Source of the DNA: Salipiger profundus
Lineage (GTDB): Bacteria; Pseudomonadota; Alphaproteobacteria; Rhodobacterales; Rhodobacteraceae
Direction: 5' to 3'
Assembly (NCBI RefSeq): GCF_001969385.1
Contig: NZ_CP014796.1
Span: 4,295,501-4,359,500 of the forward strand
Length of the DNA: 64,000 bases
In this document: positions 10,965-60,680 of the stretch, piece by piece
Layout: each line of letters starts with the position of its first letter
Position numbering within the stretch: the stretch's first letter is position 1
Notes under the pieces: model-generated
Told to the model about the DNA's origin: nothing
The model's input: the letters and a program-made list of their open reading frames with translations, nothing else
Databases searched by the model: none
Position numbers and translations under genes: made by a program

Positions 10965-10974
10965 GTCTCTATAT

Positions 10975-13930: not shown

Positions 13931-13950
13931 GTACTTTTTTGCGCTGAGGC

Positions 13951-14178: not shown

Positions 14179-14194
14179 ACGACGGAGGCGAAAC

Positions 14195-14623: not shown

Positions 14624-14638
14624 GAGGAGGACCGATCC

Positions 14639-15037: not shown

Positions 15038-15077
15038 ACCCGACATGTCGCACCCAAAAGAAGAAAGGAGAACTCAC

Positions 15078-15569
15078 ATGCAGATCAAGGACCTGATCCC
15101 TTGGGCGCGGAAGGATCATGCGCCCGACCCGAAAAGTGATGACCAGAACCCCATCGCCACCCTTCAACGCGACATGAACCGTGTGTTTGAAGGCTTCTGG
15201 AACCGCGTCGGCGATTTCGACTGGCCCTGGGGAGGCGGCGAGGCGAAATCCGACGTGGTCGAGACCGAAGATCACGTGGAGGTATCGATCGAACTGCCCG
15301 GGATGGAAATGAAGGACATCGAGGTCACCGTGACCGACGACATGCTGACCATCAAGGGCGAGAAGAAGATCGAGCGGCAGGAGGAGAAGAAGGGCTATTA
15401 TCTCTCCGAACGCAGCTATGGCGCGATCTATCGCACGATCCCGCTACCGCCGGGAGTCGACGGTGAGAAGGCCGATGCCAGCTTCAAGAACGGCGTGCTG
15501 ACGATCAAGCTGCCGCAGACCCCGGAGGCGCAGGCCAAGGTCAAGCGCATCGAGGTGAAAAACGCCTGA
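15078..15569 (+). CDS. Hsp20 family small heat-shock protein
   Basis: A 163-aa protein beginning MQIKDLIPWARKDHAPDPKS. The N-terminal arm contains a WPWGGGE motif. The crystallin domain has ELPGMEMKDIEVTV, a charged loop (GEKKIERQEEKKGYYL) and NGVLTIKLPQ, with C-terminal RIEVKNA. The long lysine/glutamate loop is common in archaeal-type or class C Hsp20 of tLST loci. The ATG at 15078 follows AAAGGAGAACTCAC. It is the last gene of the triplet and of the stress island. Confidence 0.93.
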   Translation: MQIKDLIPWARKDHAPDPKSDDQNPIATLQRDMNRVFEGFWNRVGDFDWPWGGGEAKSDVVETEDHVEVSIELPGMEMKDIEVTVTDDMLTIKGEKKIERQEEKKGYYLSERSYGAIYRTIPLPPGVDGEKADASFKNGVLTIKLPQTPEAQAKVKRIEVKNA

Positions 15570-15835
15570 TGCCAAGTGGCGTGCCGGCGGCACCGTGCTG
15601 TCGGCACGACGACCTACACTTCTCCAGTCTTGGACGGCTAAATCCAATCGGGAGAGAGCGATGCAGGTCCGGTTGGAACTTCAGGCAGTTGCCCGGGACT
15701 GGTCTTCCGCAAAAGTACTTCCTAGCAGTTCACATAGCTAAAATGGACGAACGATCTCGTAAAAAGCACGGCACCAGAACCCTGCACGATCGAGTGCGAG
15801 ACCCACCTATGGGGGCATCGAGCGGATGACACACG
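15570..15835. other. Spacer between stress island and conjugation region
   Basis: Just after the hsp20 stop, GTGCCGGCGGCAC and CGTGC-TGTCG-GCACG give two overlapping small hairpins (about 15580-15607) that could end transcription. The remainder has no convincing gene or repeat. It marks the border between the stress island and the conjugation cluster. Confidence 0.4.
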
Positions 15836-16786
15836 ATGAAAAGGAGAGCACGTGACATTGAGTTTCGGCACCTGCGGTGCTTCGTTAATGCAGCCGATCA
15901 TGGCAGTTTCCGAAAGGCTGGAAGCACGATGGGTGTCCAGCAGTCATCAATCAGTCGATGCATCTGCGATCTCGAAGATCGCCTCGGGACATCCTTGTTC
16001 CACCGTCATCGAAGCGGTGTGACCCTAAACCGCGCCGGGCAACAATTTCTACCTCGCGCACGTCAGATAATTCGCGGGCTAGATGAGAGCTTGCACGCGA
16101 TGGCGGCACTTGGCAGATCGGAAAACGGCCGTATAAGAGTCGGCATTTATTCATCGATTGCCTCGGGCTTTCTGGCCGAATTGCTGCGCTCCTTCGGGGA
16201 GCAGCACAACCATGTTCAGATCGAATTGATCGATGGAAACCCGGAAGAACACGTCGCTGCAATTCGCGGGCTCAAACTCGACGTCGCTTTCCTAACCGGA
16301 ACCCGAACCTGGCAAGATTGCGACAGCGCATTGATGTGGTCGGAAGGTGTTTTCGTTGTCCTGCCTGAACGCCATGAGTTAGCCATCCGGACAGCAGTCG
16401 ACTGGCGCGAGCTTAGCGGCGAGGCTTTCATGGTCAGCGAAACAGCGCCGGGCCAAGAGATCTATGACTATCTGGTGAGGAAGCTGGCAGACCTCAGTTG
16501 GCACCCTGACATACATGTGCAATCCGTAGGTCGAGATAACCTGCTGTCATTGGTTGCCATTGGGCGAGGTTTGACCGTGGTCAGCGAAGCGATGACGGCC
16601 ACGAACCATCCGGGAGTGGTCTTTCGACCGATCAAGGGCGAGCGCCTTCCATTTTCTGCAATCTGGTCACCGAATAACGACAACCCTGCGTTCAGGCGTC
16701 TTCTGAGCATGGCGACGACAAAGGCAGGATCGGAGAGAAGCCCGGCGATCAGTGAGCATCTCTGTGGATTTGAGCAGAACGCCTAG
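15836..16786 (+). CDS. LysR-family transcriptional regulator next to trb cluster
   Basis: A 316-aa protein. The N-terminal winged HTH covers about residues 8-70 (EFRHLRCFVNAADHGSFRKA and QQSSISRCICDLEDRLGTSL). The substrate-binding domain runs from about residue 95 to 295 (RIRVGIYSSIASGFLAELLR). The ligand is unknown. It converges on DUF2274, and the two genes overlap at their 3' ends (16749-16786). LysR genes are often found at this end of alphaproteobacterial trb clusters, so control of transfer is plausible, but the target is not shown. The ribosome site is weak. Confidence 0.88.
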   Translation: MKRRARDIEFRHLRCFVNAADHGSFRKAGSTMGVQQSSISRCICDLEDRLGTSLFHRHRSGVTLNRAGQQFLPRARQIIRGLDESLHAMAALGRSENGRIRVGIYSSIASGFLAELLRSFGEQHNHVQIELIDGNPEEHVAAIRGLKLDVAFLTGTRTWQDCDSALMWSEGVFVVLPERHELAIRTAVDWRELSGEAFMVSETAPGQEIYDYLVRKLADLSWHPDIHVQSVGRDNLLSLVAIGRGLTVVSEAMTATNHPGVVFRPIKGERLPFSAIWSPNNDNPAFRRLLSMATTKAGSERSPAISEHLCGFEQNA

Positions 16787-42650: not shown

Positions 42651-43427
42651 TCAATCAGCATGCGGGGCGTCAGGTGCTTTGACGTCGAATACCTTCGTCC
42701 TGTGCCAGTCCAAGAAGACCCGATGCTTGTCGGTCAGATCGACTGGCCGATCAAAACTTAGTCGCGCACGTGCCTGCTCGCTGAGGTTCGCCGAAAAGAC
42801 CGGAATGCCGTCATCACCGAAGGTAACCAGACCACCATCGAATACGGCATCCCAAAGAGCCGACAGAAGCAAACCATTATGGACATCCAGACGCTCTGCG
42901 TCGTTTTCACAGTCGCGCCATGGCTTGATGTGAGAGGCACGTAGAAGCGGCTTGTCGACAATCCCGGTAAGAGGGCATCGCCCCCGCCAGTATTTGATCA
43001 GACGCTCACGAAAGATGTTCTGGCCGACACGCTGGACCACAAGGCGTTCCGCCTCCGTCGTCTTCGGCAAGTGCTTGGTGCGGTGAATAAACTCCTGAAG
43101 TGGTGCGTCGGGAAGGCTTGCGGCAAGCTCGTAAACTCGTGGCATCACGCCATAAAGCAGTGCCAGCGAGGCAAGCCGGAACCGTGCGAGGCCTGGTCCT
43201 GCGGTATCGGACGCCTCAATCCCGATCTCTGCGATGACTCCGGCGTGATCCAGGGCGAGGAGCCACGCACCGGAAGTGTCCCGTGCGAGCCAGATCGATC
43301 CCTGCGCGGTCGTCGAACTGTACCGCTGCCAGCCATCGATTTCGCCTTGGGGGCGCCGGAAGCCGTTCTGGTAGGTGACTTTGTCGCATTCCTGGCGGGT
43401 CACGAAGGATTGGGGCGTCTCGATCAT
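42651..43427 (-). CDS. HNH endonuclease, last gene of defence operon
   Basis: A 258-aa protein. Residues about 1-140 form a domain of unknown type (a WQRYSSTTAQGSIWLARDT region). The C-terminal HNH_2-like nuclease (PF13391) has RGRCPLTGIVDKPLLRASHI, KPWRDCENDAERLDVHNGLL and LSALWDAVFDGGLVTF, supplying the SHI histidine, the N and the D/H region. It probably cleaves DNA. Its ATG overlaps the ATPase stop (TGATG at 43425-43429), so production is tied to the ATPase. Likely the effector or one of two nucleases in the system. Confidence 0.82.
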   Translation of the reverse strand: MIETPQSFVTRQECDKVTYQNGFRRPQGEIDGWQRYSSTTAQGSIWLARDTSGAWLLALDHAGVIAEIGIEASDTAGPGLARFRLASLALLYGVMPRVYELAASLPDAPLQEFIHRTKHLPKTTEAERLVVQRVGQNIFRERLIKYWRGRCPLTGIVDKPLLRASHIKPWRDCENDAERLDVHNGLLLSALWDAVFDGGLVTFGDDGIPVFSANLSEQARARLSFDRPVDLTDKHRVFLDWHRTKVFDVKAPDAPHAD

Positions 43428-45388
43428 CAAAAGTCCATCGCAAACAATCTGGCTTCAGGTGGGGTTGATGACAGTTTCAGCCGTACCGAGTGATGATCTG
43501 CTGTGATTTGCGATGGGGCGGTAGTTGTCGTTACAATATACTGGAATGGTGGGGGGCTTGTTTTCTCTTCCAGGCCCAGCGCGAAATCAAAGAGATTTGA
43601 GTAGATGCCAGCGTCGAGGTCTGCTTCGCGGGGACTGTCATGGATGAGGAACGACGGTAGGTCCGCCTTTCCGTTCACAGAAAGGATCATGGCGGCGAGG
43701 TCGAAAGCAACGATCTTGAACGACTCTACTGCCGCCGTTGAAAGGCCCGCGCCACGATCTAGCAATATCTCGGGATGTAGACCGTTACCGTCGAGTTTCA
43801 CTTTCCCAGTACAGCCATTGGGCATCAGAGTCGCGACAAGTTGTCGAAAGAGTGTTTCCAAGTCACCTATCGCTGCCGCGGCGCGTTCGCGCTCAAGGCC
43901 CATCTTTTGTCGTTGACCGTCAAGCATTCTGTCAACGCCGGCCAAGCGCTGAACTATTCGGGCGCGATCACTTAACTGGCGGTCGAACCAGTTAGCTTCT
44001 CTCACCAAGTCCTGAGCGTGATTTATAGCTTTGTTGGCGTCTGAGGCTTGCCGCTCGAGTTGCGCGAAAGAATCTTCAATTTTGGAAATTTCACCATCCA
44101 GACGCAAGATTTCCTGATCGAGGTTCTCAATTTCTCCGGGCAGTGCCAATCTTTGACGATCTAGCTCAGCAACATGTTTCTCAGTCCGTTCAATCCGGCC
44201 TTTCACCTCGTCAAGGTTGCACCGTTCCAGAGACACCCCACATCCATTGGCCTTCACCTCATCGATGCTGACATGACAAATTGCGCAACGGACAATAACG
44301 CCAGTTTCAAGTCTTGCTTGCTCGGTACCTTGTTCGGCACGAGCAGCAGAAATCTGACTCGGAAGGCTGTTCAATAGGGCCTTCTTCTCCGCCCTTTCGT
44401 CACTTCTTTTGTTTCGCTCGGACTGCAGAAGGCTTCGTTTGCTGCGCAGAGCGTCGCTGGGGCGACCACCCTTGGAGTGTTCGGTGCCTAGGGCCTTCGC
44501 CAGTACTTCATTCGCCTTGTCGATCAACTCCTTGCGCACGATCTCTTCCGTCGGATCACGGTCCTTGGAGTAAGACAGGCGTTCACAGAGTTCGCCGAAT
44601 CTTTGGCTTTGGAACCAGTCGAGATGGCCGAGCTTTTCACGTAGACCGTCGCGCTCGCGTGTATGTGCTCTCGCCTCCTTCGTGGCTTGAACCTCGTCCG
44701 CTGAGAGCGCCCCGATAGCCAGACGCACGACAGTCAGCCTTGTCTCAAGAGAAAGTTCCTGAGCAGGTGATCCCGAACCGGACCGCTTAGATCGCCAGTC
44801 GAAGACGTCGTCCAGACGGCATTCCTGATCGCGGGTGAGCCAGGCCAGCAGGACGTCCCAGACTTGTTCTGCCTTCAAGTTGTCCGGAACCTGATCTCGA
44901 TACCGGGCACAAAATCTATCGGAGATCACCGGCGCTATCGTTGGAGGTTCAGTGCCGACCAGAAGCTGGTCAAATGTCTCCTCGATCCGCTCTGCGCGGG
45001 TGGCGCGGGACGGCAGGTTCATGCCAATCGGACGGGTGACCACCCAACACTCGCCATCAATGATGACTTCGGCGCCAACAAAGCCATTCGGCAATCTTTG
45101 CTGCATGAGCGGGCGCTGTTCGTCGTTGGCGAAGGTGCGCTCGCCCAAGCAATACCGGATCAAACGGCAGAAGGTCGTCTTGCCGCTGCCATGAGGGGTG
45201 GCACCGGTTTCGTTCATCGACAGATCGGGCGACCAGATGATGTTGACGCCGCGCCGAAGCTCAATATTGCGCAGCAAAGTCTGAGGATCGCGCCAGAGCG
45301 CCAGCCGTCGAACCCACAGGCGAGGCCCTTGCTGACCTTCGGGCAGATTGAATTCAATCTCGGATGGCTGAAACAGATCAGGCTGCAA
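43427..45388 (-). CDS. SMC/Rad50-like ATPase with CxxC hook (DUF2326-like)
   Basis: A 653-aa protein. Walker A is in TPHGSGKTTFCRLIRYCLGE near residue 67. Two long coiled coils flank a zinc-hook-like VRCAICHVS near residue 365. The C-terminal ATPase half has SFLIHDSPREADLDAGIYSN, the HDSP signature I associate with DUF2326/ABC-type defence ATPases. It starts at TTG with GGGAGGGTCGCC in front and overlaps the methyltransferase end by 11 bp. It could sense or clamp DNA ends and license the HNH nuclease. The N-terminal 35 residues are an unusual extension. Codon usage is visibly AT-richer than in the upstream genes. Confidence 0.8.
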   Translation of the reverse strand: MQPDLFQPSEIEFNLPEGQQGPRLWVRRLALWRDPQTLLRNIELRRGVNIIWSPDLSMNETGATPHGSGKTTFCRLIRYCLGERTFANDEQRPLMQQRLPNGFVGAEVIIDGECWVVTRPIGMNLPSRATRAERIEETFDQLLVGTEPPTIAPVISDRFCARYRDQVPDNLKAEQVWDVLLAWLTRDQECRLDDVFDWRSKRSGSGSPAQELSLETRLTVVRLAIGALSADEVQATKEARAHTRERDGLREKLGHLDWFQSQRFGELCERLSYSKDRDPTEEIVRKELIDKANEVLAKALGTEHSKGGRPSDALRSKRSLLQSERNKRSDERAEKKALLNSLPSQISAARAEQGTEQARLETGVIVRCAICHVSIDEVKANGCGVSLERCNLDEVKGRIERTEKHVAELDRQRLALPGEIENLDQEILRLDGEISKIEDSFAQLERQASDANKAINHAQDLVREANWFDRQLSDRARIVQRLAGVDRMLDGQRQKMGLERERAAAAIGDLETLFRQLVATLMPNGCTGKVKLDGNGLHPEILLDRGAGLSTAAVESFKIVAFDLAAMILSVNGKADLPSFLIHDSPREADLDAGIYSNLFDFALGLEEKTSPPPFQYIVTTTTAPSQITADHHSVRLKLSSTPPEARLFAMDF

Positions 45389-48300
45389 GGCGACCCTCCC
45401 TGATGAACGGAAGGATTACGGCAGACACCTGCGCGAGCCCGAGATCCAAATCCACACCTTCCAGCCTCGACCATGCAAAGATTGCGCGGCCGACGGCAGG
45501 ATCACTTGCATTCAGGGTCGATCGATCAAGCCTCGAACCCGCGCTCCATTGTGTGCCATCGGATGAGACATCCAATACGGCAGAGGAAACGAGATCAGTG
45601 AAGACCGCGCCCCAGGCTGCGTTCGTTGGCGGAACGAGTTGAGTAGCGCCCGTCGAGTGCGCCAAGAGACGTTGCCACTCTCGACGATCCGTTTCCGACA
45701 GGAAGCCATTAAGCAGGCCTGGCTGAAGGCAGGCGAGCGCGGCCAGACGGACGCGACGGGCATCCGAAGGCCCTGGCAGAATACCCACCATCGCCCGAAG
45801 CTGTGCTCGGACTCTGTCTCGCTCATTGATACCCTGAGGCCACGCCCACATTGCGTCCTCATACTGGTTGAGCGGGGGCAGCTCGATTTGTTGAGCGACG
45901 GCCGTTGCTCTGTCAGCCAAACCGAGGGCAGCAAACGTGCCATTCTGCTCCATCCTGTCCCAGGCCTCAATTACGAGGCGGCGGGTGCGGTATTCGCCGT
46001 GGTGGCGGATTTCCTTTTCCTTGAGGACGCGGAAGGTTTCCGAGGGGTAGTCGGGGCCCTTCACGTCGGCGGGGTCGAGGATGTAGCGCAGCTCGTCGCG
46101 GGTCAGGCCGTAGGCGCGGGCGTAGAAGGCGTCGAGATCGGCGCGCAGGTGGGCGCGTCGGTCCTCGTCCCAGGCGAAGGGCGGGCCGTCATGGCCCAGA
46201 TCGTGGGCGAAGGGGGCGAGGCTGTGTGAGGTGTAGGTGAGCTCCAGCACCTTCGGGGTGATGAAGTTCAGCCGACGCTCATCGTAGAAATCGGGCGAGA
46301 GGACCGGAAGCTGCTCGTAGATGAAGAAATTGAGATGGGTGCCACCTACTTTATGGCGAGCAACAAAATCGAACGTCAGCGAGGAAAGGCACCCAATAAG
46401 TCCTGCCAGTGATCTCGGCGATGTAGCCATCGGGAATAGCATTATCGGCAAATTGTTACCCACAGCAAGCCGTGGGAAAGCAGCTGCAATGACCGTGCGT
46501 TCGTTTGTAGCATTCGTGATGTCTCGCCAGCCCATGAACCAGTCGCGGCGCCACTCTTTGGCAATAAGCTGTGCTTGTACTTCTTTCTCGTCCACCCAAT
46601 ATCGCGGCAGGGGTTCGAAATCAGCGTTTGCTTTCTCTGTACTTGCTATATCAGTGGAAGTTTCTCCTTCGAGGTCGTAACCCGCCCAGCGATGATCATA
46701 CAGGTGGATCATCTTTGCTTCATAGAGTGGGGTGTACACTTCGCAGCATGTCGCTACGCCACCATCGTTGGGCCCTTCCTGATCATTTTTTCCAACAGGC
46801 TTCACCCAGTTTGCGCCGTGGCGCATGCATCCCCGAGCGGCAAGCTCTTGTGCACTCTTAAACAGCGCAGAATCCGACGTCATGTTGAAGAGCCCTTGGC
46901 GGAACTCCACGCCCCACGGATTGCCGTTTGCGCCTTTGGTCGAATTTATAAATACGGGCGCGGCACGATATATTTTCGCCGTTAATTCAGCATCCGCTTG
47001 GGATCTGAATATTGGTGCAGTTCTCGTGTTTGGATTTATCGCAAAAATATCACTTGCGGATAGCTGATATCTGCGCCGTGGATCGGACAGCTGATCTGAG
47101 GCAAGGATGTACGCAGTAAAGTCGGATGTTTCGCCTGCGTCCCCCATAGTCAAAAGAACGAAGGGGGTGTCGGGGTGAACGGCCGGAAAGATTCTCCACG
47201 CGTTGTCAAACATCAGTGCTGAGACTAGGCGATTCTTCTGCACGATCTCGTCGAAAAAGAAGCGGTTCGAATAATCTGTGGCGATGCCGCTCTGCACAAT
47301 AATGCCCGCGCGCCCACTCTTGCCAATGAGTTGATGGGATAGCTCAGCAAATAGCGGATAGGTGTTAATTTTTCCACGGGCCGTCAGGTCAAACCTACCG
47401 GACTCCCGAGCAAACTCGTTCCCTGCGTCGAAAACCCGCTTGGCAAAAACGAAGCTTGAATACGCGCCGGGGTCGGTTTTCTCCAATCCTTCGATAGCTT
47501 TTTTCCTCGCGGCTCCCGCAAGCGCGGCGATCTCTGGTTTGCGAGTTGCGAAGTATTCTTTGTCGGAAAGCTGCATCACCTCCCACGGTGGGTTGCCAAG
47601 CACCACGTCGAACCCACCGCGCTGCATCACGTCTGGGAACTCCAGCGGCCAATGCAGGGCACGGGCGTTGCGGGCGGCCTTGGGGGCATCATTCATCGCC
47701 TGCCGCATCTTGCCCTGATTGAGGGCCATCCACAGTTCCTCGGTCGTCGGCACGGTGCGGGCCGATGCCCCCGCCGGTGCACCACCGACCTTGGGCAGCA
47801 GGAAAGCCGCTACATAGAGGTCCGCCGCCGCCTTGGCGCGGACAAAGGTCTGCCCCTTGCGCAGTTCCTTGAACCGCTTGGCCTTAGCCCCGATCTGTTC
47901 GACCGTATCCTCGGGCAGGTCACGGAAGCCCGAGAAATCGAGCGCCAGCGGTTTCATCGCGGGCATCGACGCCTGACCGGTGCCGAAGTCGAACCCGCCT
48001 TGCCCCGCCGTCGCATCGCGATTGGCCTTGAGGTAGTATTTCGCTGTTTCCTTGTCGTCGCCGGTCAGCGGCTTGTAGGCGGCGTCGGGAATGCCGTCCT
48101 GCAGCACCTGCAAATCGAACACCCCCAGCAGCGCATCGCCGCAGCGAATCTGCGCGTCGAAGAAGCCGAGGGGAAGGCCCGGGTCCACCGTCTCGATCCA
48201 GAGCGCGACCTTGGTCAGCTCCACCGCCATCGGGTTGCGGTCCACCCCGTGGATGCAACAGCGGGCGACATCGCGCAGGGCGTGGCGGAAGTCGGCGAGC

Positions 48301-49853
48301 GAGGGCGTGCCCTCGGCCCGGATGCGCGCGAGCCGCGTGGCGATGCGGCGGGCGGCGGCCAGCAGGAAGTGGCCCGAGCCACAGGCGGGGTCGATGACCG
48401 AAAGCTTCAGCAGCGCCTTGGCGGGATCGTCCGCCTCGGCCTCAATCTTGTCGAGCACGGGATCGAGCGCGGTGTCGAGCAGCGCCTGCACGAGACTGTC
48501 GGGCGTGTAGTAGGAGCCGGTGGTCTTGCGCTGGTTGCCCTTCTGCTCGGCCGCCTCGGAGGCGAAGACCAGCGTCTTACCGTCGTCGCCGAGCTGGGGC
48601 TGCAGTTCGAGGAGGGATTCGTAGACCGAGCCCAGTTCCTCGGTCTCCATCGCGCGCCAGTTGACCGGGACCATGCCGGTTTTGTCGGCGAGCCAGGAGA
48701 GGCGATAGAGCGCCTCCATGAAGGCGCGGTTGCGCAGGCGGGCGGTCTCCAAGTGGGGCAGCCTGTCCTCCGCGAAGAGGCCGCCGAGGGCGGGCAGCGC
48801 AAGGGCGGGCTGGCCTTGCGTGAGGGCGCGGAAGACGATCTTCACCCCCTCGTAGCGGTCATGGTGCTTGTCCCAGGTGGCGGCGCGGTAGCATTGCTTG
48901 CGCAGCGACTGGAGCGAATAGCCTTGGGCGTAAAGGGCGCGGGCCTCGGGCTTGGCCTTTTCGGGGTGGAGGAGGTTCCGGTCCTCGGCCACCATCAGGA
49001 AGATCAGCCGGTAGACGAGACGCAGGAGTTCGTTGAACCACTCGGTCAGGTTCACTTCGCCGGACCGCAGTTTCGCGGCGAGGTCGGGGTTAGCCTCGAG
49101 GAAGCCCGAGCCGAGCAGTTTGAGGGCCAGTTGGACCTGACCGGCCAGGCGATCTCGCGCGGCTTCGCCCTCCTTGGAGCCGGCATCGCGCCAGCGTTCG
49201 ATGGGGCAATCGGTGGCGGTGGTCTCTGCCGCGCCGAAGCGGGTGCGGTGGATCATGAGCCAGAGCACCGCGAAGGACGCAATGTCTTCGTTGGTAAACA
49301 TCTGCGCCAGATCGGCCTCGACATAGGCCGGACGGGTCAGCGAGGCATTGTCGCGCATGAGGCGCAACTGCATCCCATTGGTGACTATGCCCCAAAGGGC
49401 CTCGTCCCGATCATTCAGGTGGTCCTGAAGGGCAAAGGCCGGAGAGCGCGACCTGTCCGTCGAGAGCGTCGGGCTGCGGCGGTCAAGTAGCTCGGACGGC
49501 GGGACGACGACGACAGGCACACGATCGGACGCGATCAGGGCGATCGGTGCCGCTGCCACCGTGAGGTCTGTGTACCCGAAGGTTTCCTTGAAGAAGTCGG
49601 CGATGAAACGCGAGGTGGCGGCGGCCGAGGGGTGTTCGATCTTCGCAAAGGCATCGAAATGCGATTGGCCTACGCGGAAGGCGGTGGCGATTTCCTCGCG
49701 GATCTGTAGGCCTTTGCGAACCCCGTATTCCTCGGGGGATTGCTCGGGTGCCTGGCGCTGATCGATCTTTGCGATCATTGCAGGCGCGATCAGGTTGCCT
49801 TCGAGGCTCAGCGACGGCCACGCGGACATATCGGTAATTGGTTTGCGGGCCAT
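45378..49853 (-). CDS. Large N6-adenine DNA methyltransferase (Eco57I/DrmMI/PglX-like)
   Basis: A 1491-aa protein. An N-terminal region of about 450 residues is followed by the class gamma MTase: motif I VIDPACGSGHFLLAAARRIA near residue 491 and motif IV VLGNPPWEVMQL near residue 754, then a target-recognition region to about residue 1180 and a C-terminal domain. It would methylate adenines to mark self DNA; size and layout resemble DrmMI of DISARM and PglX of BREX. The segment 46.3-47.6 kb (residues about 750-1175) is clearly AT-richer than both flanks, suggesting exchange of the specificity region. It starts 2 bp after the SNF2 stop. Confidence 0.88.
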   Translation of the reverse strand: MARKPITDMSAWPSLSLEGNLIAPAMIAKIDQRQAPEQSPEEYGVRKGLQIREEIATAFRVGQSHFDAFAKIEHPSAAATSRFIADFFKETFGYTDLTVAAAPIALIASDRVPVVVVPPSELLDRRSPTLSTDRSRSPAFALQDHLNDRDEALWGIVTNGMQLRLMRDNASLTRPAYVEADLAQMFTNEDIASFAVLWLMIHRTRFGAAETTATDCPIERWRDAGSKEGEAARDRLAGQVQLALKLLGSGFLEANPDLAAKLRSGEVNLTEWFNELLRLVYRLIFLMVAEDRNLLHPEKAKPEARALYAQGYSLQSLRKQCYRAATWDKHHDRYEGVKIVFRALTQGQPALALPALGGLFAEDRLPHLETARLRNRAFMEALYRLSWLADKTGMVPVNWRAMETEELGSVYESLLELQPQLGDDGKTLVFASEAAEQKGNQRKTTGSYYTPDSLVQALLDTALDPVLDKIEAEADDPAKALLKLSVIDPACGSGHFLLAAARRIATRLARIRAEGTPSLADFRHALRDVARCCIHGVDRNPMAVELTKVALWIETVDPGLPLGFFDAQIRCGDALLGVFDLQVLQDGIPDAAYKPLTGDDKETAKYYLKANRDATAGQGGFDFGTGQASMPAMKPLALDFSGFRDLPEDTVEQIGAKAKRFKELRKGQTFVRAKAAADLYVAAFLLPKVGGAPAGASARTVPTTEELWMALNQGKMRQAMNDAPKAARNARALHWPLEFPDVMQRGGFDVVLGNPPWEVMQLSDKEYFATRKPEIAALAGAARKKAIEGLEKTDPGAYSSFVFAKRVFDAGNEFARESGRFDLTARGKINTYPLFAELSHQLIGKSGRAGIIVQSGIATDYSNRFFFDEIVQKNRLVSALMFDNAWRIFPAVHPDTPFVLLTMGDAGETSDFTAYILASDQLSDPRRRYQLSASDIFAINPNTRTAPIFRSQADAELTAKIYRAAPVFINSTKGANGNPWGVEFRQGLFNMTSDSALFKSAQELAARGCMRHGANWVKPVGKNDQEGPNDGGVATCCEVYTPLYEAKMIHLYDHRWAGYDLEGETSTDIASTEKANADFEPLPRYWVDEKEVQAQLIAKEWRRDWFMGWRDITNATNERTVIAAAFPRLAVGNNLPIMLFPMATSPRSLAGLIGCLSSLTFDFVARHKVGGTHLNFFIYEQLPVLSPDFYDERRLNFITPKVLELTYTSHSLAPFAHDLGHDGPPFAWDEDRRAHLRADLDAFYARAYGLTRDELRYILDPADVKGPDYPSETFRVLKEKEIRHHGEYRTRRLVIEAWDRMEQNGTFAALGLADRATAVAQQIELPPLNQYEDAMWAWPQGINERDRVRAQLRAMVGILPGPSDARRVRLAALACLQPGLLNGFLSETDRREWQRLLAHSTGATQLVPPTNAAWGAVFTDLVSSAVLDVSSDGTQWSAGSRLDRSTLNASDPAVGRAIFAWSRLEGVDLDLGLAQVSAVILPFIREGRLAA

Positions 49854-49855
49854 GA

Positions 49856-52627: not shown

Positions 52628-52628
52628 A

Positions 52629-55600
52629 TCAACCTTCAAAATTCTTCATGAAGCCATCCGGCAGTCCTTCCGACGGCGCCGAAGGCAATCCAAAAACGAC
52701 CCAGCCCTTGTTCATCGCGTCTGCCTCAGCTTCCGCTGTCAGGTCAGCGGTCGTCGCGGCAACCGCGAATGCGCGCCAAACAAACTCGAATTCGCGTCCA
52801 CCAAAGCTCGCGGGCATCGTATCAATTTGGGGGATGCCCGCGGCGCTGAATGCCTCAATCCATGGTGATGCCACCGTTCCAGCGGTCGGCTTCGCAGCAC
52901 GGGAAATCGTGCCGCGTGCAAGATCGATCAGGAATTGCGTCACTTCCGAGCTCGAGCGGTCGATCAGTTCATGGTCCGGTTGGTTGAAATAGGACAGCAG
53001 GCAACGGTAGCAGCCGCGAACACAGCTTCCGTCTTTCTTCTCCTGCAACAGATCCGCATCACCCGCCGCAATCGCAGCATCGACATTCTCGAAGTGCATC
53101 AAACCCAGTGCGGTCTTCGCCACCTCGTTGATTGCCTTTCCTTCATCAATCAGGCGCGTGAGCACGCCGGCGCCGCCTTCCGTTGCCTCGTAGGCAAGGA
53201 TTGCGCGACGGTTGTCCCTCGCGGGCAGCGGTTCACCGAGGATTTCGCCTTCTTCCAATTGGAAAACCACCTCGATTCCGCGCAGCAACGCATGCTGAAC
53301 CGTCGCGATTGTCTCGGGCTCATACTGCTCCGGCTTTTCGAAGCGGAACAGCAGGGCATTCTTTCTGTCGCGGACAATCGGAACAATGCGAACCGGCTTG
53401 ACCACGTCCGGCGGAACGTCCGTGTCGCTGTCCTCGTCGTCGGATTTCGCCCAGTATCCGGACCTCGGATCGATGTGGAAACCGAAAACCGTCTGGTCCT
53501 TTCGGCGCTTCAAGCCCTTGTTCAGTCGGCTGATTTCTGCGCTATTGGCGTATTGCAGGGCCAAGAGGGAGGTCTCGCCACAGACGAATTTGGCGTTGGT
53601 CACTTGGACCTGCCCATCCTTCTTCGGCCAGGAGAAGACGGTCTGGATGTCAAAGCCCTGCCGAACGCGCTCTTCATCGTTCGCCGTGATGCGCTCAGTC
53701 GGGGCGGCCTCGACGTTGTCGATGCGCAGGGTCTTCTTAATGGGGACCTCACCCGCCATATGGTTGTTGCACCCATGGCAACGCTCGACCTCGCCCTCAT
53801 GCGATGCACCACAGTTGGAGCAGATGTAGATATCCTTGGTCGCCAACTCCGACCCGTCGCCCTGACGCACCTCGGGCGGCAATTTGGCTTTCATGACCCG
53901 GTAGGCGCGGCCCTCATGATAGATCAGACTGCGCGGGCCGAATTCGGAAATGGCGAGGAAGCGGGCTCTGGAAAGGAATGACCCCGTCTTGCCTTCGCTT
54001 GGTACAAACGCGTAGAGCGGCAGGCGCGGGAAGTTGTACCCGGGCAGGAAGCCCTCAGTCGCCAGATACCGATACGAATAGAAATCGGACCCATTCGAGG
54101 CTTTGCCTTGTTCGAGGATGGCGATCTGATCCTGGGCCTGCATTTGCGCAGCCTTGATCTTGCGCCGGTCGGCTCCCGATAGCCCCGTAATCTCCGAACG
54201 CTTGTTGGCCTCAGCCAATTGCGTCCTGGCAGAGCTATAAAGCTCCCGCCAACGGTCGAAGGCGCGGTCAAACTCCTTTGGGGCATTCATGGCCGTGTGA
54301 AGAACGAACTCGTCTGGATCGTCCATCCAGATCGGGGTTTGCCCTCCGTCGGACGCCAGAATCTGCTTCAAGACACGCGCCATCGGTCCCCGTGCCTGCG
54401 AGACCAGAGCGGGTTTCGAGATGACCTCCAGAACGTCTTCTTTCAGCGGGAATTTGTCCCCGTGAAGGTCCAGAATCTCTGGGATGTCGGGAGAAAGCGC
54501 CAGTTTCGCTTCCGCCAGCCACACCGCGTGCAGGTGCGATCGGACCAGCTCTTCATTCGTGATGTCGAGTGCTGGCGGCCGCACGACACCGGCCACCATA
54601 TCGTTGCGCCGTTCAAAGAAATACTGATCATGCGGTGATCCCGAGGCGCAGTATGTCACGACAACCGCGGCCTGGCCCGAGCGACCGGCACGGCCAGCGC
54701 GCTGCGCGTAATTCGCCGGTGTAGGAGGTACGTTGCGGAGGTAGACCGCGTTCAAGGCGGAAATATCAACGCCGAGTTCCATAGTCGGAGAGCAGAACAG
54801 CGCTGGCAGGAACCGGTCTGACTCGCCGGTCGCCCGAATTTCTGTTCGGTACTCCGAGGTCGCGAGATGGTCCATGTCGTCCTGCTCGAAACGGAACCGC
54901 CATTCACGCCATTCTCTCTGCTTTTGCGAAACCTGAGCCGTGTGCTCGCGTCCCTCCAGCCCCCAGTAGGAACTACGCCCGTCGCCAAGGTCACTGGCAA
55001 TCGCGGTGTAAAGGTCGTGGAAATATCGGTTGCCGCAGTGGGTTTCATCATCGAGAGCCGGTCCAGGCACAAGCCGAACCGCAGATGGTGACAGGCGCCA
55101 GCCCGTCACATCGCTATCGAGTTCAACAGGCACCAGCAGCCCTTCCTCGCTCAGGAAGACAAGCATCCCTTCCATGAACTCGTAGTACTCATCCTTGTTC
55201 AGCTTCATGCCTAGAACCGACTTCCGGTTCACGAGCCGTGCGATCCGCGAATTGGGACCTGCCCGAAGAAGCGTTTGTTCTTCACGCAGCGTGACGACAT
55301 TTTTGCTGCCCGCGCGCAGGACAAGCGAGGACCGCGCTCGCGGATTTTCCTTTTGGTCAATGGCCCAAGGTGCCTGAAGCAGCATTCGGGATTTCTGGGC
55401 CACGCCGTCGAGGACAGTCAGGTCCAAGGCTTCGGTCTGAACAGCCAGGCCCTCAAGCATCGCGGACAAAATCGCCTTTAGAATTGCCTGCCGCTGTTCG
55501 AGGCTGAGGTCTCCCAGCGCTGGATGGATGGCCATGAAGCGCTCGCGATCTTCAGAGATTTCCTCGAGGCCGAGGAAGTTCACGTCGATCAGGTTCAGGA

Positions 55601-57806
55601 CAGACAAGCTGGGGTTGGTGAAGCGCCAACCGCGACGCAGGTCCGTCCAGACACGGTGGGCGAGTACCTTCGCGAGCGATCGCTGGGCGTCTTCGCGAAT
55701 GATGGCACCAGCATTCGAATCCAGCAGCCAATGCTGGCGCGCCTCTTTGTTGGCGGCAGTAAAGCCGAGCGCCTTCACCACCTGCAGGCCGAACTCATCT
55801 TCTGCGAGCCCACCTGAGCCAGCAGCAATGACCGCGCGAAGGATGGCTCCGCGCAACAGGCTTACGAACAGGAAGTCATTGAAATGGCCAGACTGCAGGG
55901 CTGCATCCTGACGGTTATCCGTGAACCCCAAAAGCTTCCGCTTCGTCTCGGGTACGCCGCTGCCAGGTTTGTTCATCCACTCCAGGGCGCTGGCGACCAG
56001 CAAGGTTGTTGCCGAGCTTCGCCCTTCGCCGGACAGACCCGCCAACTTGCTGCGCTCACGCATCCCCTGCGTCGGTTCGTCATGGCAGCACAGGCAGAAC
56101 GCGAACTTTCCCGGGATGAACCAGAAATCGTTTCCGCCCGCTCCGTGGCGACCATCAGCACCGACGACGTAGGACACCGGCATACGCTTCTTGCGATACC
56201 CTCTCAGCCGTTCAATGCCGTTTTTCTCTTCTCGCCAGCTTTCGGGGTAACCCTCAAGCTCGCCTGTGAACTGGAAGTCAGTATCGCCGGGCGTCACCGG
56301 ACAGAGATACCCCGCGACCTCGTCTTCTTCAGTGTCGAGCGGCGTGTCGTCGATGCTTCGAGGCAGAAAGCGCAAGCTCCCATCATCGTCGACCTTGGTC
56401 ACGACATGGTATTCTTGGCCACAGTTTCGGCAGAACCGCGTGGGGTAGAGGCGGTTTCCAGGGGCTTCGGGGTCCTCGAGCTGCCCTTCAAGGAGGATCC
56501 GACGCGGCCTGGCCGTGAGCGTCGTAAAGACTTCACCGGCACCGGAGATGAACCGGTGGAGTTTGAAAGCGAGAAAGGCTCCGTCCTTCATGCCGCCGCG
56601 CTCAATCTCCGGCAGGCTTACCCGGGTCAGGAATTTTTCGAGATAGTCTCGGCAGGTTTCTGCATCGACCGCACTGGCCAGAGAAAGCTTTTCAACGGCT
56701 TCTTCAAAAGGGATCGGCTTCTTCCTGCGAAGCTCAAGCCCATCGTCCAATCCGAGTTCGAGTTCGGCCCAAACCGAGAGCGGATGGCGCTCTAGGGTTT
56801 CGTCATCGAGTGCGTCCGGCAAAGGCTGCGTCAGGGCCGTCTTCAAAGCGCCAAGGACGTGCTCGGTCTTCAGGGCGTCATCGGTCGCGCGCTGCAAGGA
56901 CTCGTCGATGACCGCGTCCGGGCCAATGTCGGTGCCAAACAGACGAGACGCTACCTTCGCGACAGCAAGTGCGCGGCTCTCGTCCGATCCCTCGGAGGCC
57001 ATCGTTGCCGAGGTCCCAATGCAGATTGGCTCCTTGTCCGGCGAGCACCTGTCCCGCAGGCGTCGAACGAGGACCGCGACATCGGCACCTTGGCGCCCGC
57101 GATAGGTATGGAGTTCGTCGAGAATGATGAACTCGAGACCGGACGCGTTCGAGACGACCTTCGAGTCCAGGTCGTCCTGACGCGTCAGAAGCAATTCTGC
57201 CATCATGTAGTTAGTCAGGAGAATGTCGGGCGGATTGGCAGCGATGCGCTCCCGCCCTTCACGGCTTTCCTGACCGGTGTAACGTTTGACCACCGGCTTG
57301 AGCTCATCGGGCAAACCGGAACCAGCGATGAACTTGTCGATCTCCTTCATCTGGCTGTTTGCCAGTGCGTTCATGGGGTAAACGATGATTGCCGTCGTGC
57401 GACGCGGCTTTCCTGCGCGCCGCGCTCGGATGATCGAGTCGACAACCGGCACGAAGAAGCAAAGGGATTTCCCCGAACCCGTACCGGTTGTGACGACATA
57501 ACTCTTTCCTTGCTTCGCCTTCGCGATCGCCTCGGCTTGGTGCCGGTGAAAGCGAAGAGGCGTGGTGCCAAACCGGAAAACCTTGCCCGTGCCGTCGTCG
57601 AGATCACCCGTGGCGACAAGTTCATCGACCGTCGGCCCCGCCATGAAGCGTGGGTTTAGAGACAAGAGGGCATCCGGCCAGAATTTTCCGGCGTCGTACT
57701 GGGCATCGATCTCGGATTTCAGGTCGGGTGCCCGAATTGCGCTGAATGAACGCGAAAAGTGCTCGTAAGCACGGATCAATTGATGGTCGAACTCAAACGC
57801 TTTCAT
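52629..57806 (-). CDS. Giant DEAD/DEAH helicase with DUF1998 (DruE- or DrmA-DrmB-like)
   Basis: A 1725-aa protein. Motif I is VVTTGTGSGKSLCFFVP near residue 105, motif II FIILDELHTYRGRQGADVA near residue 230 and the SAT motif IGTSATMAS. A first cysteine pair lies in FCRNCGQEYHVV. Helicase C has CSPTMELGVDISALNAVYL and YAQRAGRAGRSGQA. Another zinc-type stretch is CSNCGASHEGEVERCHGC. The C-terminal DUF1998 region has YEATEGGAGVLTRL and the cysteine cluster SCVRGCYRCLLSYFNQ near residue 1595. The order corresponds to DruE of Druantia, or DrmA plus DrmB of DISARM in one chain. It starts immediately after the DUF262 gene stop (TGA-ATG), so it is strongly coupled. Confidence 0.88.
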   Translation of the reverse strand: MKAFEFDHQLIRAYEHFSRSFSAIRAPDLKSEIDAQYDAGKFWPDALLSLNPRFMAGPTVDELVATGDLDDGTGKVFRFGTTPLRFHRHQAEAIAKAKQGKSYVVTTGTGSGKSLCFFVPVVDSIIRARRAGKPRRTTAIIVYPMNALANSQMKEIDKFIAGSGLPDELKPVVKRYTGQESREGRERIAANPPDILLTNYMMAELLLTRQDDLDSKVVSNASGLEFIILDELHTYRGRQGADVAVLVRRLRDRCSPDKEPICIGTSATMASEGSDESRALAVAKVASRLFGTDIGPDAVIDESLQRATDDALKTEHVLGALKTALTQPLPDALDDETLERHPLSVWAELELGLDDGLELRRKKPIPFEEAVEKLSLASAVDAETCRDYLEKFLTRVSLPEIERGGMKDGAFLAFKLHRFISGAGEVFTTLTARPRRILLEGQLEDPEAPGNRLYPTRFCRNCGQEYHVVTKVDDDGSLRFLPRSIDDTPLDTEEDEVAGYLCPVTPGDTDFQFTGELEGYPESWREEKNGIERLRGYRKKRMPVSYVVGADGRHGAGGNDFWFIPGKFAFCLCCHDEPTQGMRERSKLAGLSGEGRSSATTLLVASALEWMNKPGSGVPETKRKLLGFTDNRQDAALQSGHFNDFLFVSLLRGAILRAVIAAGSGGLAEDEFGLQVVKALGFTAANKEARQHWLLDSNAGAIIREDAQRSLAKVLAHRVWTDLRRGWRFTNPSLSVLNLIDVNFLGLEEISEDRERFMAIHPALGDLSLEQRQAILKAILSAMLEGLAVQTEALDLTVLDGVAQKSRMLLQAPWAIDQKENPRARSSLVLRAGSKNVVTLREEQTLLRAGPNSRIARLVNRKSVLGMKLNKDEYYEFMEGMLVFLSEEGLLVPVELDSDVTGWRLSPSAVRLVPGPALDDETHCGNRYFHDLYTAIASDLGDGRSSYWGLEGREHTAQVSQKQREWREWRFRFEQDDMDHLATSEYRTEIRATGESDRFLPALFCSPTMELGVDISALNAVYLRNVPPTPANYAQRAGRAGRSGQAAVVVTYCASGSPHDQYFFERRNDMVAGVVRPPALDITNEELVRSHLHAVWLAEAKLALSPDIPEILDLHGDKFPLKEDVLEVISKPALVSQARGPMARVLKQILASDGGQTPIWMDDPDEFVLHTAMNAPKEFDRAFDRWRELYSSARTQLAEANKRSEITGLSGADRRKIKAAQMQAQDQIAILEQGKASNGSDFYSYRYLATEGFLPGYNFPRLPLYAFVPSEGKTGSFLSRARFLAISEFGPRSLIYHEGRAYRVMKAKLPPEVRQGDGSELATKDIYICSNCGASHEGEVERCHGCNNHMAGEVPIKKTLRIDNVEAAPTERITANDEERVRQGFDIQTVFSWPKKDGQVQVTNAKFVCGETSLLALQYANSAEISRLNKGLKRRKDQTVFGFHIDPRSGYWAKSDDEDSDTDVPPDVVKPVRIVPIVRDRKNALLFRFEKPEQYEPETIATVQHALLRGIEVVFQLEEGEILGEPLPARDNRRAILAYEATEGGAGVLTRLIDEGKAINEVAKTALGLMHFENVDAAIAAGDADLLQEKKDGSCVRGCYRCLLSYFNQPDHELIDRSSSEVTQFLIDLARGTISRAAKPTAGTVASPWIEAFSAAGIPQIDTMPASFGGREFEFVWRAFAVAATTADLTAEAEADAMNKGWVVFGLPSAPSEGLPDGFMKNFEG

Positions 57807-59729
57807 TCAGGCGGCCTCCTCGGTGTCCGGGCTTGGAACATCGAAGCCTTCGTCGTCCTGGAGAACGTCCTCGCCTTCCTCCGGCACGGAATCTGCCCTG
57901 ACGATCGCATGCCCGGTTGCCTTTGAAATCATGGCAAGGAGCCGCGTCTCCCGATCCGCCATGAATCCCTCGAAGTCATCCGCCCTCAGCAAGGATGGAT
58001 CCAGTCCGTGAGACGCCAGATAATCATCAAGCGCTTCGCGGGCGATCGGCGGGTTGTCCTTTCCGCCTGTTTCCAGTCGTTCCAGGTAGACCGATGGAGC
58101 TACGCCGCCAAGAATGCGGTTGGTCTTGTAGCTGAGCGGCGTCTTGTTGACGACGGTGTCAAAGACCTTCGGCTCGATTTTCTGCTTCTTGCACCAGTCC
58201 TGCGGGAAGATGTGGTGGATATCGACGTACTCGTCAAAGAATACCGTGTCCTTGAAGTGCTGGCCGGAGCGAAGATCTCTCGCGCCTTCGGCCATCAGAA
58301 GGGCGTGGATACCCTTGTAGGCGGCCGACAGGCGGGTGCGCAGGGTGCGCAGGCGTTCCGGTCGGAAACGGCCATCGGTGATCGTGCTGGGTTCGGGGCC
58401 ACCGTCCAGCCATGCGGGCACCTCGAGCACGTCCTTGGCAAATCGGGACTCGATGGCCGAGCCATAGAGTTCGCCAAAAATGCCGCACCAGAACCAGCGG
58501 GCGAGCTGGTCTTTCACTGCAGCGTGGTCGAACCTCGGCCCGATGATGGCGAGGATCGCGGCAAAGGGGACAAGCTGGCCCTGATAGGGCAGATCGATGA
58601 CCCGATAGATGTGGTTCTGCCGGAGGAACTTTGCCGCAGTCTTGAACCCTTCTTCGACCGCAGCACGGTGTTTCAGATACGCCTCCAGCGGCAGGTCTAG
58701 GAGCGACTGACGCGTGGCCCGGACTGCGGACAGCTCCGTCTCTTTGCTCCCGGCGGCGATTTCGGCCGCACGGGTCTCGACCCCATGCAGGAGGGCGATG
58801 GCCTGCAGCACGTCGGTGGCAGCGACCTTCTCCAGCACGCCAAACTTCTGTTCGGCCGCCCGCCCAAAGAGCTGAAGCCGGGTCTGCAGCCCCGGCTGGC
58901 CGTCGGCGCCGAGCCAGTCGTCCCGCAGGCGATGGCCGCGGGCTGCATACATCGCTGTCACAAGCTCGAATGCGTCGAGCGGCTTGCCGCCGGTATTCAC
59001 CTTCTCAAAGACCAGACAGACGGCCTCGTGGGAGGTGTCGGGGCTCAATGCGATTACGGGCAGCTGGTAGGCCTTGAAGTTCTGAAGGACCTCATCCTTG
59101 AACGGCTTGAAGAGCTTGCGTGTCTCCGGGTCGTTTTCCAGCCAGTATTCGTTGAAGCCGTCTTGCCATTCGTCCCAGTCAAAAACCTGGTTCAGCGGGA
59201 ACATGAGGTTTTGGTATTCGAGTTCCGGCGTGGAGAGATCGAGGTCGATCTTCCGGTCGAAGTCCGACTTGATCCGCCGATCCTCCGGTACTGAGACAAT
59301 GGCGTTTTCGCGGTCCTCGGCCGGGTTCATTGCTTTTCGAATGTCGATGTAAAACCAGCGCTTCACGAGCTTGAGGCGAGGCGTGACCGTTTGCACCACC
59401 TCGCGGCGCAAGCAGGTCTGATAAAGCGAGGTCATGCGCTGCTGGCCATCCAGCAAGAGCTGATCCGGTGCGTCGTCGCCAACTGCGGCATCCGCCCCCT
59501 GGATTGGTCGGCGTGCGAAGGTATCAGCCGCACCAGGCTTCACCTCGAGCGTCATCAAGGCGCCGACCGGAAACGCCTGCGAGATCGAGGCGATCAGCCC
59601 CTTGATCCGTTCCTCGTCCCACACCCAGCTGCGCTGGAAATCCGGCAACTGAATTTTGCCGTTCCCACACTGACGGAGAAGCTCCTCCAAGCTGACCGGG
59701 TTGGTCTTGAATGCCGCTTGTTTACCCAA
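57807..59729 (-). CDS. GmrSD-like DUF262/DUF1524 protein
   Basis: About 640 aa. The N-terminal DUF262 (ParB/Srx-like NTPase) has QLPDFQRSWVWDEERIKGLI and LLLDGQQRMTSLYQ. The C-terminal DUF1524 HNH-type nuclease has DEYVDIHHIFPQDWCKK and NKTPLSYKTNRILG. GmrSD enzymes are type IV restriction proteins that use NTP to cut modified DNA. Start: TTG at 59729 is preferred because GAGGAGAGCCAGA precedes it; a TTG at 59744 has none. It lies 63 bp after the WYL gene. In this operon it may destroy phage DNA carrying modified bases that the methyltransferase module would not recognise. Confidence 0.85.
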   Translation of the reverse strand: MGKQAAFKTNPVSLEELLRQCGNGKIQLPDFQRSWVWDEERIKGLIASISQAFPVGALMTLEVKPGAADTFARRPIQGADAAVGDDAPDQLLLDGQQRMTSLYQTCLRREVVQTVTPRLKLVKRWFYIDIRKAMNPAEDRENAIVSVPEDRRIKSDFDRKIDLDLSTPELEYQNLMFPLNQVFDWDEWQDGFNEYWLENDPETRKLFKPFKDEVLQNFKAYQLPVIALSPDTSHEAVCLVFEKVNTGGKPLDAFELVTAMYAARGHRLRDDWLGADGQPGLQTRLQLFGRAAEQKFGVLEKVAATDVLQAIALLHGVETRAAEIAAGSKETELSAVRATRQSLLDLPLEAYLKHRAAVEEGFKTAAKFLRQNHIYRVIDLPYQGQLVPFAAILAIIGPRFDHAAVKDQLARWFWCGIFGELYGSAIESRFAKDVLEVPAWLDGGPEPSTITDGRFRPERLRTLRTRLSAAYKGIHALLMAEGARDLRSGQHFKDTVFFDEYVDIHHIFPQDWCKKQKIEPKVFDTVVNKTPLSYKTNRILGGVAPSVYLERLETGGKDNPPIAREALDDYLASHGLDPSLLRADDFEGFMADRETRLLAMISKATGHAIVRADSVPEEGEDVLQDDEGFDVPSPDTEEAA

Positions 59730-59792
59730 TCTGGCTCTCCTCAAATGAACTTGCTGGCTTCTGGCAACTGGACGCGATGTCCGAAAAAGGCT

Positions 59793-60680
59793 TCATTTCG
59801 AACCCTCCGGAGCGCCAGCTGCTCGAATGCCACTGAAAATCTCGTCGCGATTGATCAGCACGATCTGCTGGTCCTGGGGCGCGCGCGCTTCGAGGGCGGT
59901 ATCTAGACCGAGGCGTTTGAGCGCATAGTAGAGGAGCGCACGTCTCACCTTGATCTTCGCCTTGCCGCCGCGCATGCCATAATCGAGGGCAATAACCTTC
60001 GCTTGTGTTTCCGAGAGATCGGGGTGTGGCCCAACCTCCAGCGTGACCTCGGCAAGCCAGTCGTGATCGTCGCCGGCCGATTTGTCGCTTTCGCCCGAGC
60101 CTCGAACCTCAAGCATTCGAGACAACAGGAAGCCCTTGAAGCAATCGTCGGTTTGGCAGAACGCCCGAGTGTGCCAGCGGAAACCGTCAAACGCGATGGC
60201 ATGGGGGGCGATCCAGCGCCAGCGCGGCTCGGGGCTGGACAGGGACTGGTACTTTACCTCGATCGCCTCGGACCGACGGATTGCGCCAACGACCGAACGA
60301 AGCGTCGCCGGATTGACCCCACGAACTGGCGTAGGGGCGGCCGCGTAGGGCGGGAGGTTGGCGATCCAAGCGTCCTCGCGGTCGAGGAGCCCGTCAGCGA
60401 CTGATCGGAGTTGTGCAAGGTAGCGGCTCGCGTCGGGCTCGAGGAACTGCGGCTTGAACTCGGAGCCGCGTACATAGGTTCGCGCACTCTTGTCGTAGAC
60501 CATGTTGTCCGGCGCGAAGCCGATGTAGCGGTTCAGGTCGGTGGACGCCTGGTTCACCGATACCCCGAACTGGTCCATCAGATCGCTGCGGTTCACATGT
60601 CCCTCCCAGAACAGGCGGAACTCTATGAACTCGAGGCGCTTCTCGACACCCCAGCGAAGTTCCGACCGGTCGCTCTCCAA
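59793..60680 (-). CDS. WYL-domain regulator of defence operon (BrxR/CapW-like)
   Basis: A 295-aa protein. The winged HTH is at about residues 12-60 (EFIEFRLFWEGHVNRSDLMD, GVSVNQASTDLNRY). The WYL domain is at about residues 125-190 (EVKYQSLSSPEPRWRWIAPH and DGFRWHTRAFCQTDDCFKGF), followed by a WCX-type C-terminus. This is the BrxR/CapW layout of repressors that head BREX, CBASS and other phage-defence operons. The start is TTG with GGAGGTGATTTT before it. It is the first gene of the seven-gene unit; a dyad in its promoter region could be its operator. Confidence 0.88.
   Translation of the reverse strand: MESDRSELRWGVEKRLEFIEFRLFWEGHVNRSDLMDQFGVSVNQASTDLNRYIGFAPDNMVYDKSARTYVRGSEFKPQFLEPDASRYLAQLRSVADGLLDREDAWIANLPPYAAAPTPVRGVNPATLRSVVGAIRRSEAIEVKYQSLSSPEPRWRWIAPHAIAFDGFRWHTRAFCQTDDCFKGFLLSRMLEVRGSGESDKSAGDDHDWLAEVTLEVGPHPDLSETQAKVIALDYGMRGGKAKIKVRRALLYYALKRLGLDTALEARAPQDQQIVLINRDEIFSGIRAAGAPEGSK

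Follow-up and report, generated by a model that had tools for sequence, protein, structure and literature searches.

A Vsr-dead, ARMADA Type I-like operon with an HNH nuclease and a LmuB-like ATPase in Salipiger profundus

Results and Discussion

The subject of this work is a run of seven minus-strand genes within a stretch of 64,000 nucleotides of Salipiger profundus DNA (the window; contig NZ_CP014796.1, positions 4,295,501 to 4,359,500), which is part of a 5.42 Mb assembly (GCF_001969385.1). With a probability of about two in three, we regard them as an ARMADA Type I-like defence operon of a nuclease-swapped lineage, in which the Vsr domain is dead and an HNH nuclease is present, and which carries a Lamassu-like sensor cassette. 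From their covariation, the LmuB-like ATPase and the matching methyltransferase tail appear to form an exchangeable module, with the WYL and DUF262 genes as optional extras.

Recomputation of the open reading frames (ORFs) returned all seven genes where the first-pass annotation had placed them (Table 1), and its description of the stretch from the DUF262 gene to the HNH gene as tightly coupled, with each junction overlapping or at most two bases wide, agrees with the coordinates. The WYL and DUF262 genes are spaced by 48 bases and the DUF262 and helicase genes by 0 bases, the helicase and SNF2 ORFs overlap by 11 bases (or leave a 1-base gap if a 923-amino-acid (aa) SNF2 start is used), 2 bases separate SNF2 and methyltransferase, and overlaps of 11 and 4 bases join the methyltransferase to the SMC-like ORF and the latter to the HNH ORF. 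The Pfam families found were WYL, GmrSD_N, DEAD with Helicase_C and MZB/DUF1998, SNF2-rel with Helicase_C, Eco57I, and HNH_2. DruE, DpdE/DrmD, DrmMI and LmuB were among the best PADLOC models for the seven proteins, and the NCBIfam scores listed for the window proteins lay below the model cut-offs. The annotation had recognized no named system; among the PADLOC and NCBIfam models used, indeed none gives a single name to all seven genes, but the core does have one.

The ARMADA Type I-like core

The anti-phage system ARMADA Type I is described in the available text of a preprint (PMC12458937, Bell et al. 2025) as a YprA-like helicase, a BrxHII-like helicase and a PglX-like methyltransferase, in that order, forming a clade defined by phylogeny and gene content, with a Vsr domain predicted to be active in its representatives. 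The window contains the same gene set in the same order, as do most relatives. Walker A and DELH/DEAH motifs are present in both helicases. In a model of the C-terminal 567 aa of the YprA-like helicase, long helices (model residues 6-46 and 53-74), which correspond to the finger-like helical extension after RecA2 of Type I, precede a mostly beta OB/DUF1998-type part, and MrfA (6znp, E 1.8e-5) and DrmAB chain B (7s9v, E 9.1e-5) were the sole Protein Data Bank (PDB) matches below E 0.001. The Type I zinc insertion is represented by CSNC at residue 1329 and CHGC at 1343 in the putative OB region. By gene content and order, the core is thus ARMADA Type I-like. The C-terminal Vsr, predicted active in Type I representatives, is dead here, and the operon is therefore filed as a Vsr-dead variant and not as a standard member.

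The relatives comprised the top 80 of 465 or more in a species-genome collection, a choice of plasmid records, and loci from class and phylum samples that were drawn evenly. The order YprA, SNF2, methyltransferase is kept in most loci with enough sequence, the exceptions seen being L092, L093, L106 and L108 (YprA last), and several of the relatives also have the SMC and HNH genes; this recurrence in other genomes, a check proposed with the annotation, argues that the arrangement is not due to chance. SNF2 matches at E under 1e-100 occurred in 7 of 385 class genomes and 13 of 398 phylum genomes (the window genome counted in both). The SNF2 ORF has 927 aa here and 921-923 aa in most listed database relatives, and its product shows 100% identity to the SNF2 protein of Paracoccus denitrificans DSM 413 (L002). 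On a helicase tree built without the preprint's Type I representative WP_108720193.1, the window grouped with the other gathered loci, and ArmC (Type II) and DruE (Druantia III) of E. coli ATCC 8739 fell far outside; as both outgroups sit on long branches, the finer placement is unsure. Among the papers listed, as far as titles and abstract openings show, the core is described only in PMC12458937 and the HNH/ATPase variant in none, although supplements may mention it; one further paper, PMC13192584 on Druantia III, refers to both ARMADA and HNH. As a side observation, McrB/McrC-like or DUF2357 genes follow ARMADA-like cores on plasmids of Nocardioides, Deinococcus radiodurans and Chlorohelix (L094, L086, L102), and the Nocardioides plasmid also carries drmA and drmB upstream.

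The dead Vsr domain and the HNH nuclease

The end of the window's helicase aligned with the intact Vsr-type C-termini of relatives at 99.8% over 128 columns (hhalign, shared MZB end included), and its modelled secondary structure follows the order alpha-beta-beta-beta-alpha-beta. The D and DGxxH residues of the intact relatives are lost; the same motif test scored ArmC of ARMADA Type II as intact. The HNH protein has SHI and HNG motifs, and the presumed catalytic residues H167, N185 and D194 are kept in 77/77 HNH proteins.

For the joint count of both nucleases, 18 of 105 tree rows without a Vsr or HNH state were dropped, and L005, with its helicase in two ORFs, lay outside the tree. HNH or ATPase counted as absent only where the sequence downstream of the methyltransferase exceeds 2,500 bases, and a few states were set by hand (L051 HNH-positive; L087, L089 and L121 Vsr intact; L005 dead; L100 and L102 undecided). 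The remaining 87 rows fell into 67 with a dead Vsr and HNH, 1 dead without HNH, 4 intact with an HNH-family gene and 15 intact without. In the same sequence, the split was 55, 0, 4 and 3 for the genome collection plus window (n = 62) and 12, 1, 0 and 12 for plasmids and sampled genomes (n = 25). The sole Vsr-dead row without HNH, L084, has an IS21-type transposase gene directly after its methyltransferase. The HNH gene is therefore near-constant only in the clade with a dead Vsr.

On the tree of 105 helicases, computed with the Vsr domain cut off, Vsr changed 2 times, HNH 6 times and the ATPase 24 times. The Vsr-dead loci form one clade, so the swap from Vsr to HNH was probably a single event, and the test for repeated loss had one independent pair only. 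The four Vsr-intact loci with HNH-family genes, two of which encode proteins of 380-394 aa, fit a gain first and decay later without proving it. Nearly full-length HNH matches were found in 4 of the 17 class genomes (out of 385) with any match; three adjoin a core and one (G066, L109) a 102-aa SNF2 remnant. The latter pair, at 8788-9945 of L109, is probably a relic. Taken with the lost Vsr residues, the pattern suggests that HNH, and not the helicase's Vsr, would do the cutting in this operon.

The ATPase and the methyltransferase tail

The SMC-like ATPase has a GSGKT motif and narrowly misses the Pfam cut-off for DUF2326 (26.9 vs 28.7 bits). Against LmuB profiles, hhalign gave 99.1% over 553 and 98.7% over 557 columns, compared with 35.6% over 111 for a control of housekeeping-type SMC/SbcC proteins. 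This control was not blind to the family, as LmuB itself linked to it at 94.4% over 59 columns; the names given to its four rows and to the second group of LmuB proteins (L132, L135, L138, L144, L146) come from length, motifs and upstream ORFs instead of annotation. The coil CxxC reads CAIC in the window, with CPxC in 7 of 12 LmuB-like proteins tested, and the Walker B glutamate is replaced (HDSP here, LDSP in one LmuB-like protein). The PADLOC LmuB match (67.8 bits) was dropped as non-specific: 13 of 14 control genomes also match, and in the control scan the window ATPase scored 49 bits and many proteins of housekeeping SMC length about 60-75. A PDB sequence search was likewise uninformative, returning mostly coiled-coil proteins with LmuB 9ux7 among them (E 0.0013).

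The methyltransferase shows two regions of interest. Per 60-residue bin, identity to L002 drops to 12-55% at residues about 781-1200 and is 83-100% elsewhere. Such a pattern is expected where target-recognition parts are exchanged, to judge from type IIG and PglX enzymes, and the variable stretch is probably the target-recognition region. The second region is the C-terminal extension. With 11 loci set aside because their methyltransferase ORF is truncated or split, ATPase and extension were both present in 39 of 83 loci and both missing in 41; 3 had the extension only and 0 the ATPase only. Each changed 23 times on the tree, and over 21 independent pairs a mean of 18.8 changed in the same direction, 0 in opposite directions and 2.2 were undecided (p 3.8e-6). 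ATPase distances (30 loci) correlate with those of the extension at 0.876 and of the helicase at 0.581, and extension distances with those of its own methyltransferase catalytic domain at 0.581; all exceed shuffles. Between L012 and L013, the shared fraction is 96% for the helicase, 32% for the ATPase and 30% for the extension. The pairing of the two is thus strongly supported by covariation. The alignments A5 and A7 held the window with 20 and 23 of 40 extension rows, respectively, and A8 the window with 24 of 29 ATPase rows.

As for the nature of the tail, Lamassu entries take ranks 1, 2 and 4 in its list of structural matches, all fold matches being weak, and searches for a link to PDB sequences, PADLOC, Pfam or LmuC-like profiles gave none; the winged helix of the model is possibly LmuC-like. 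In three loci of the phylum sample (L116, L117, L119) the methyltransferase is split into ORFs of 924-1012 and 495-502 aa.

The ATPase, which has many database relatives, was found in 2 of 385 class genomes (the window's own included), both times adjoining a core, and in 8 of 72,556 plasmid records, beside a core in 7 (5 opened, 2 judged by coordinates). The eighth, L088, is the one case away from a core in these two samples: Paracoccus versutus pBEN carries an ATPase-HNH pair (11428-16746) and no core in the 14 kb fetched upstream. IS21 genes sit just upstream of the pair, which looks like a relic. A scan of viral contigs with a single ATPase sequence, which reaches close relatives only, found none.

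Optional genes and the slot before HNH

Among 110 loci that contain a YprA gene, hidden Markov model scans of same-strand ORFs detected DUF262 in 10 and WYL in 15, and annotation points to one more DUF262 gene (L089) and two more WYL genes (both L098); at such low counts both genes are optional. In some relatives (e.g., L012, L014, L029) WYL lies directly upstream of the helicase without DUF262, and DUF262 also occurs at other positions, in L067 and L076 within the slot between methyltransferase and HNH. The "DUF262/DUF1524 nuclease" of the annotation is confirmed in its first half by GmrSD_N; for DUF1524 Pfam gave no match at E 0.001, and only an HHIFP string at residue 510 presumably hints at it.

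The ATPase is present in 32 of the 67 Vsr-dead HNH rows (the window and 31 others). Nine loci without the ATPase, of which L030 and L112 represent one contig, show a 4-base overlap (offset -3) between the methyltransferase end and HNH, and other loci have different genes in between. Ten such fillers were scanned: M78/IrrE-like (3), CBS (1), HD with a DarG-like neighbour (2 proteins), UvrD/GajB-like (1), AAA_21/AbiLi-like (1) and no match (2). The pair of an HD-domain protein and a small DarG-like protein lies at 16814-18702 in L033, and was assigned in L034, L041 and L043 by similar start and length only. The SMC-like gene is thus one of several fillers of this slot. Consequently, the proposal of one system stands insofar as the operon is coupled and includes the SMC-like and HNH genes as true parts, but not as a fixed set of seven, given the optional WYL and DUF262 genes and the exchangeable slot.

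Proposed mechanism and alternatives

In the scheme that we propose, the methyltransferase would mark adenine in a motif set by its variable region, and host DNA would thereby be protected, as family and variability suggest. By comparison with DISARM and ARMADA Type II, the two helicases may engage unmarked incoming DNA and translocate along or unwind it. Where relatives retain an intact Vsr, cutting would fall to the helicase; in the window's lineage the comparative evidence points to the separate HNH enzyme. The LmuB-like ATPase would dock on the methyltransferase through the winged-helix extension and, by analogy with Lamassu, might add a checkpoint for DNA ends or DNA structure that holds or releases HNH cutting. 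Judged from their families, DUF262 may be a back-up type IV-like nuclease and WYL may serve regulation. The more specific history, in which a Lamassu-type sensor was grafted by fusion of LmuC to the methyltransferase, the sensor-tail pair was swapped between lineages as one allele and cutting moved from Vsr to HNH, is put forward tentatively, at slightly under even odds; it would make the operon a modular defence machine whose self/non-self sensor can be swapped.

The strongest alternative, which we consider unlikely, combines an ARMADA Type I core with an independent back-up pair: ATPase and HNH would act as an abortive dyad of Lamassu/ABC-3C or OLD-HNH-like type, which only shares the operon and kills the cell once the core has failed. 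Dyads of ABC-ATPase and HNH are reported as back-up effectors beside BREX in the available text of PMC12839542, HNH is possible among LmuA effectors according to that of PMC10586767, and the pair stands alone in L088. However, that locus is relic-like, HNH occurs without the ATPase in 35/67 rows and overlaps the methyltransferase end in nine loci, and the distances of HNH follow those of the helicase (Spearman 0.897, 65 loci) rather than those of the ATPase (0.559), which is itself tied to the methyltransferase tail by covariation.

Somewhat less probable still is that the extension serves DNA recognition rather than partnering the ATPase, and that the ATPase hitch-hikes through one crossover that swaps the methyltransferase 3' end with the next gene. 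The two are adjacent and the fold evidence for the extension is weak, as this account would have it; yet adjacency would permit crossovers between them, and over 23 changes an ATPase without extension was never seen in 83 loci (the reverse in 3). Moreover, HNH, the ATPase's other neighbour in the window, does not travel with it. A DISARM or Druantia variant, as the annotation's parts list implied and matches to the DrmD, DrmMI and DruE models recall, is very improbable with no PLD nuclease by Pfam among the seven proteins, helicase and DUF1998 fused in one protein, an NCBIfam DrmD score of 292.6 against a cut-off of 610, and an order and content that fit ARMADA Type I.

The lineage that emerges from the ARMADA Type I-like reading is a natural dissection of three questions: which nuclease cuts (dead Vsr vs HNH), how targets are set (through a region that near-identical operons have exchanged) and by what means a methyltransferase and an SMC-like sensor are coupled. 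If the reading is true, defence systems merge at the level of protein fusion, and tail and ATPase are a mating pair whose specificity is testable by mixing alleles.

Genomic surroundings

Conjugation genes (CagX, TrbL, TrbE/VirB4-like, coupling protein, DUF3363 relaxase) and the replication initiator RPA lie near the operon at 18109-38247 of the window, and for this reason its carrier is probably a conjugative element or integrated plasmid. Stress-type genes at 2708-12807 (ClpB-like AAA protein with Clp_N, FtsH, sodium/hydrogen exchanger, glycogen debranching-like enzyme) recall what we take to be transmissible stress-tolerance loci.

Table 1. Features of the operon, in window coordinates
Feature	Position	Strand	Evidence
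WYL-domain regulator, 295 aa, optional associate	59793..60680	-	Pfam WYL 40 bits
DUF262/GmrSD_N protein, 645 aa, optional accessory, putatively type IV restriction-like	57807..59744	-	Pfam GmrSD_N 96.6 bits
YprA-family helicase, DruE-like, DEAD + DUF1998/MZB, 1725 aa, core gene 1	52629..57806	-	Pfam, PADLOC, C-terminal model
Degenerate Vsr/PD-(D/E)XK-like domain, helicase C-terminus	52632..52868	-	hhalign, model, sequence comparison
SNF2/BrxHII (DrmD, DpdE)-like helicase, 927 aa, core gene 2	49856..52639	-	Pfam, PADLOC, NCBIfam
Eco57I/PglX-like adenine methyltransferase, 1491 aa, core gene 3	45378..49853	-	Pfam Eco57I 63.1 bits; DrmMI 251.8 bits; GNPPWE at 753
Methyltransferase hypervariable region, residues about 781-1200, probable target-recognition region	46254..47513	-	Identity drop vs L002
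Methyltransferase C-terminal extension, winged-helix model, LmuC-like by weak fold match only	45408..45839	-	Covariation with SMC-like gene, model, fold matches
LmuB/Rad50-like ABC ATPase (SMC-like, DUF2326-like), 653 aa, CxxC at residue 368, slot gene	43427..45388	-	hhalign to LmuB, motifs
HNH nuclease, 259 aa, near-constant in Vsr-dead clade	42651..43430	-	Pfam HNH_2 34.9 bits; H167, N185, D194

Comparison with known systems

The likeness of the helicases and methyltransferase to DISARM and Druantia parts, noted in the first-pass annotation, is real, but either label was rejected on gene content and order; the split DrmA/DrmB and the PLD nuclease DrmC of DISARM class 1 were not found among the seven proteins. 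With BREX and BREX-related systems the operon shares a helicase and a PglX-like methyltransferase, whereas PglZ, BrxC and DUF499 have no Pfam match in its seven proteins. Nucleases near BREX-related systems are proposed, in the available text of PMC12839542, to compensate where the helicase has no fused nuclease. ARMADA Type II of E. coli ATCC 8739 (L154), for which the available text of PMC12458937 reports experimental tests (none for Type I), has the same three core families. However, its order is SNF2, methyltransferase, YprA, UvrD (UvrD/GajB-like), it is far from the window on the helicase tree (end branch 9.41) and its Vsr motif is intact; this label too was rejected on gene content and order.

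The Lamassu/ABC-3C likeness lies in a small Rad50-type ATPase of about 650 aa with a coil CxxC hook and a replaced Walker B glutamate, and in HNH, which the available text of PMC10586767 lists among LmuA effectors. Whereas that text gives the Lamassu gene set as LmuA-LmuC-LmuB, the window has no free LmuC gene, because the methyltransferase, ATPase and HNH genes overlap and leave no room; an LmuC-like fold, if it is one, is fused to a DNA methyltransferase. The window-type HNH nuclease also occurs without the ATPase. From ARMADA Type I the operon differs in its dead Vsr, predicted active there, and in HNH, SMC-like ATPase, methyltransferase tail, WYL and DUF262, which are absent from the available main text of PMC12458937 (HNH and WYL appear in its reference list only). 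Besides the core genes and their order, both share the long helical extension before the OB-DUF1998 part and a CxxC pair in that region, and among the systems compared ARMADA Type I is closest to the core described here.

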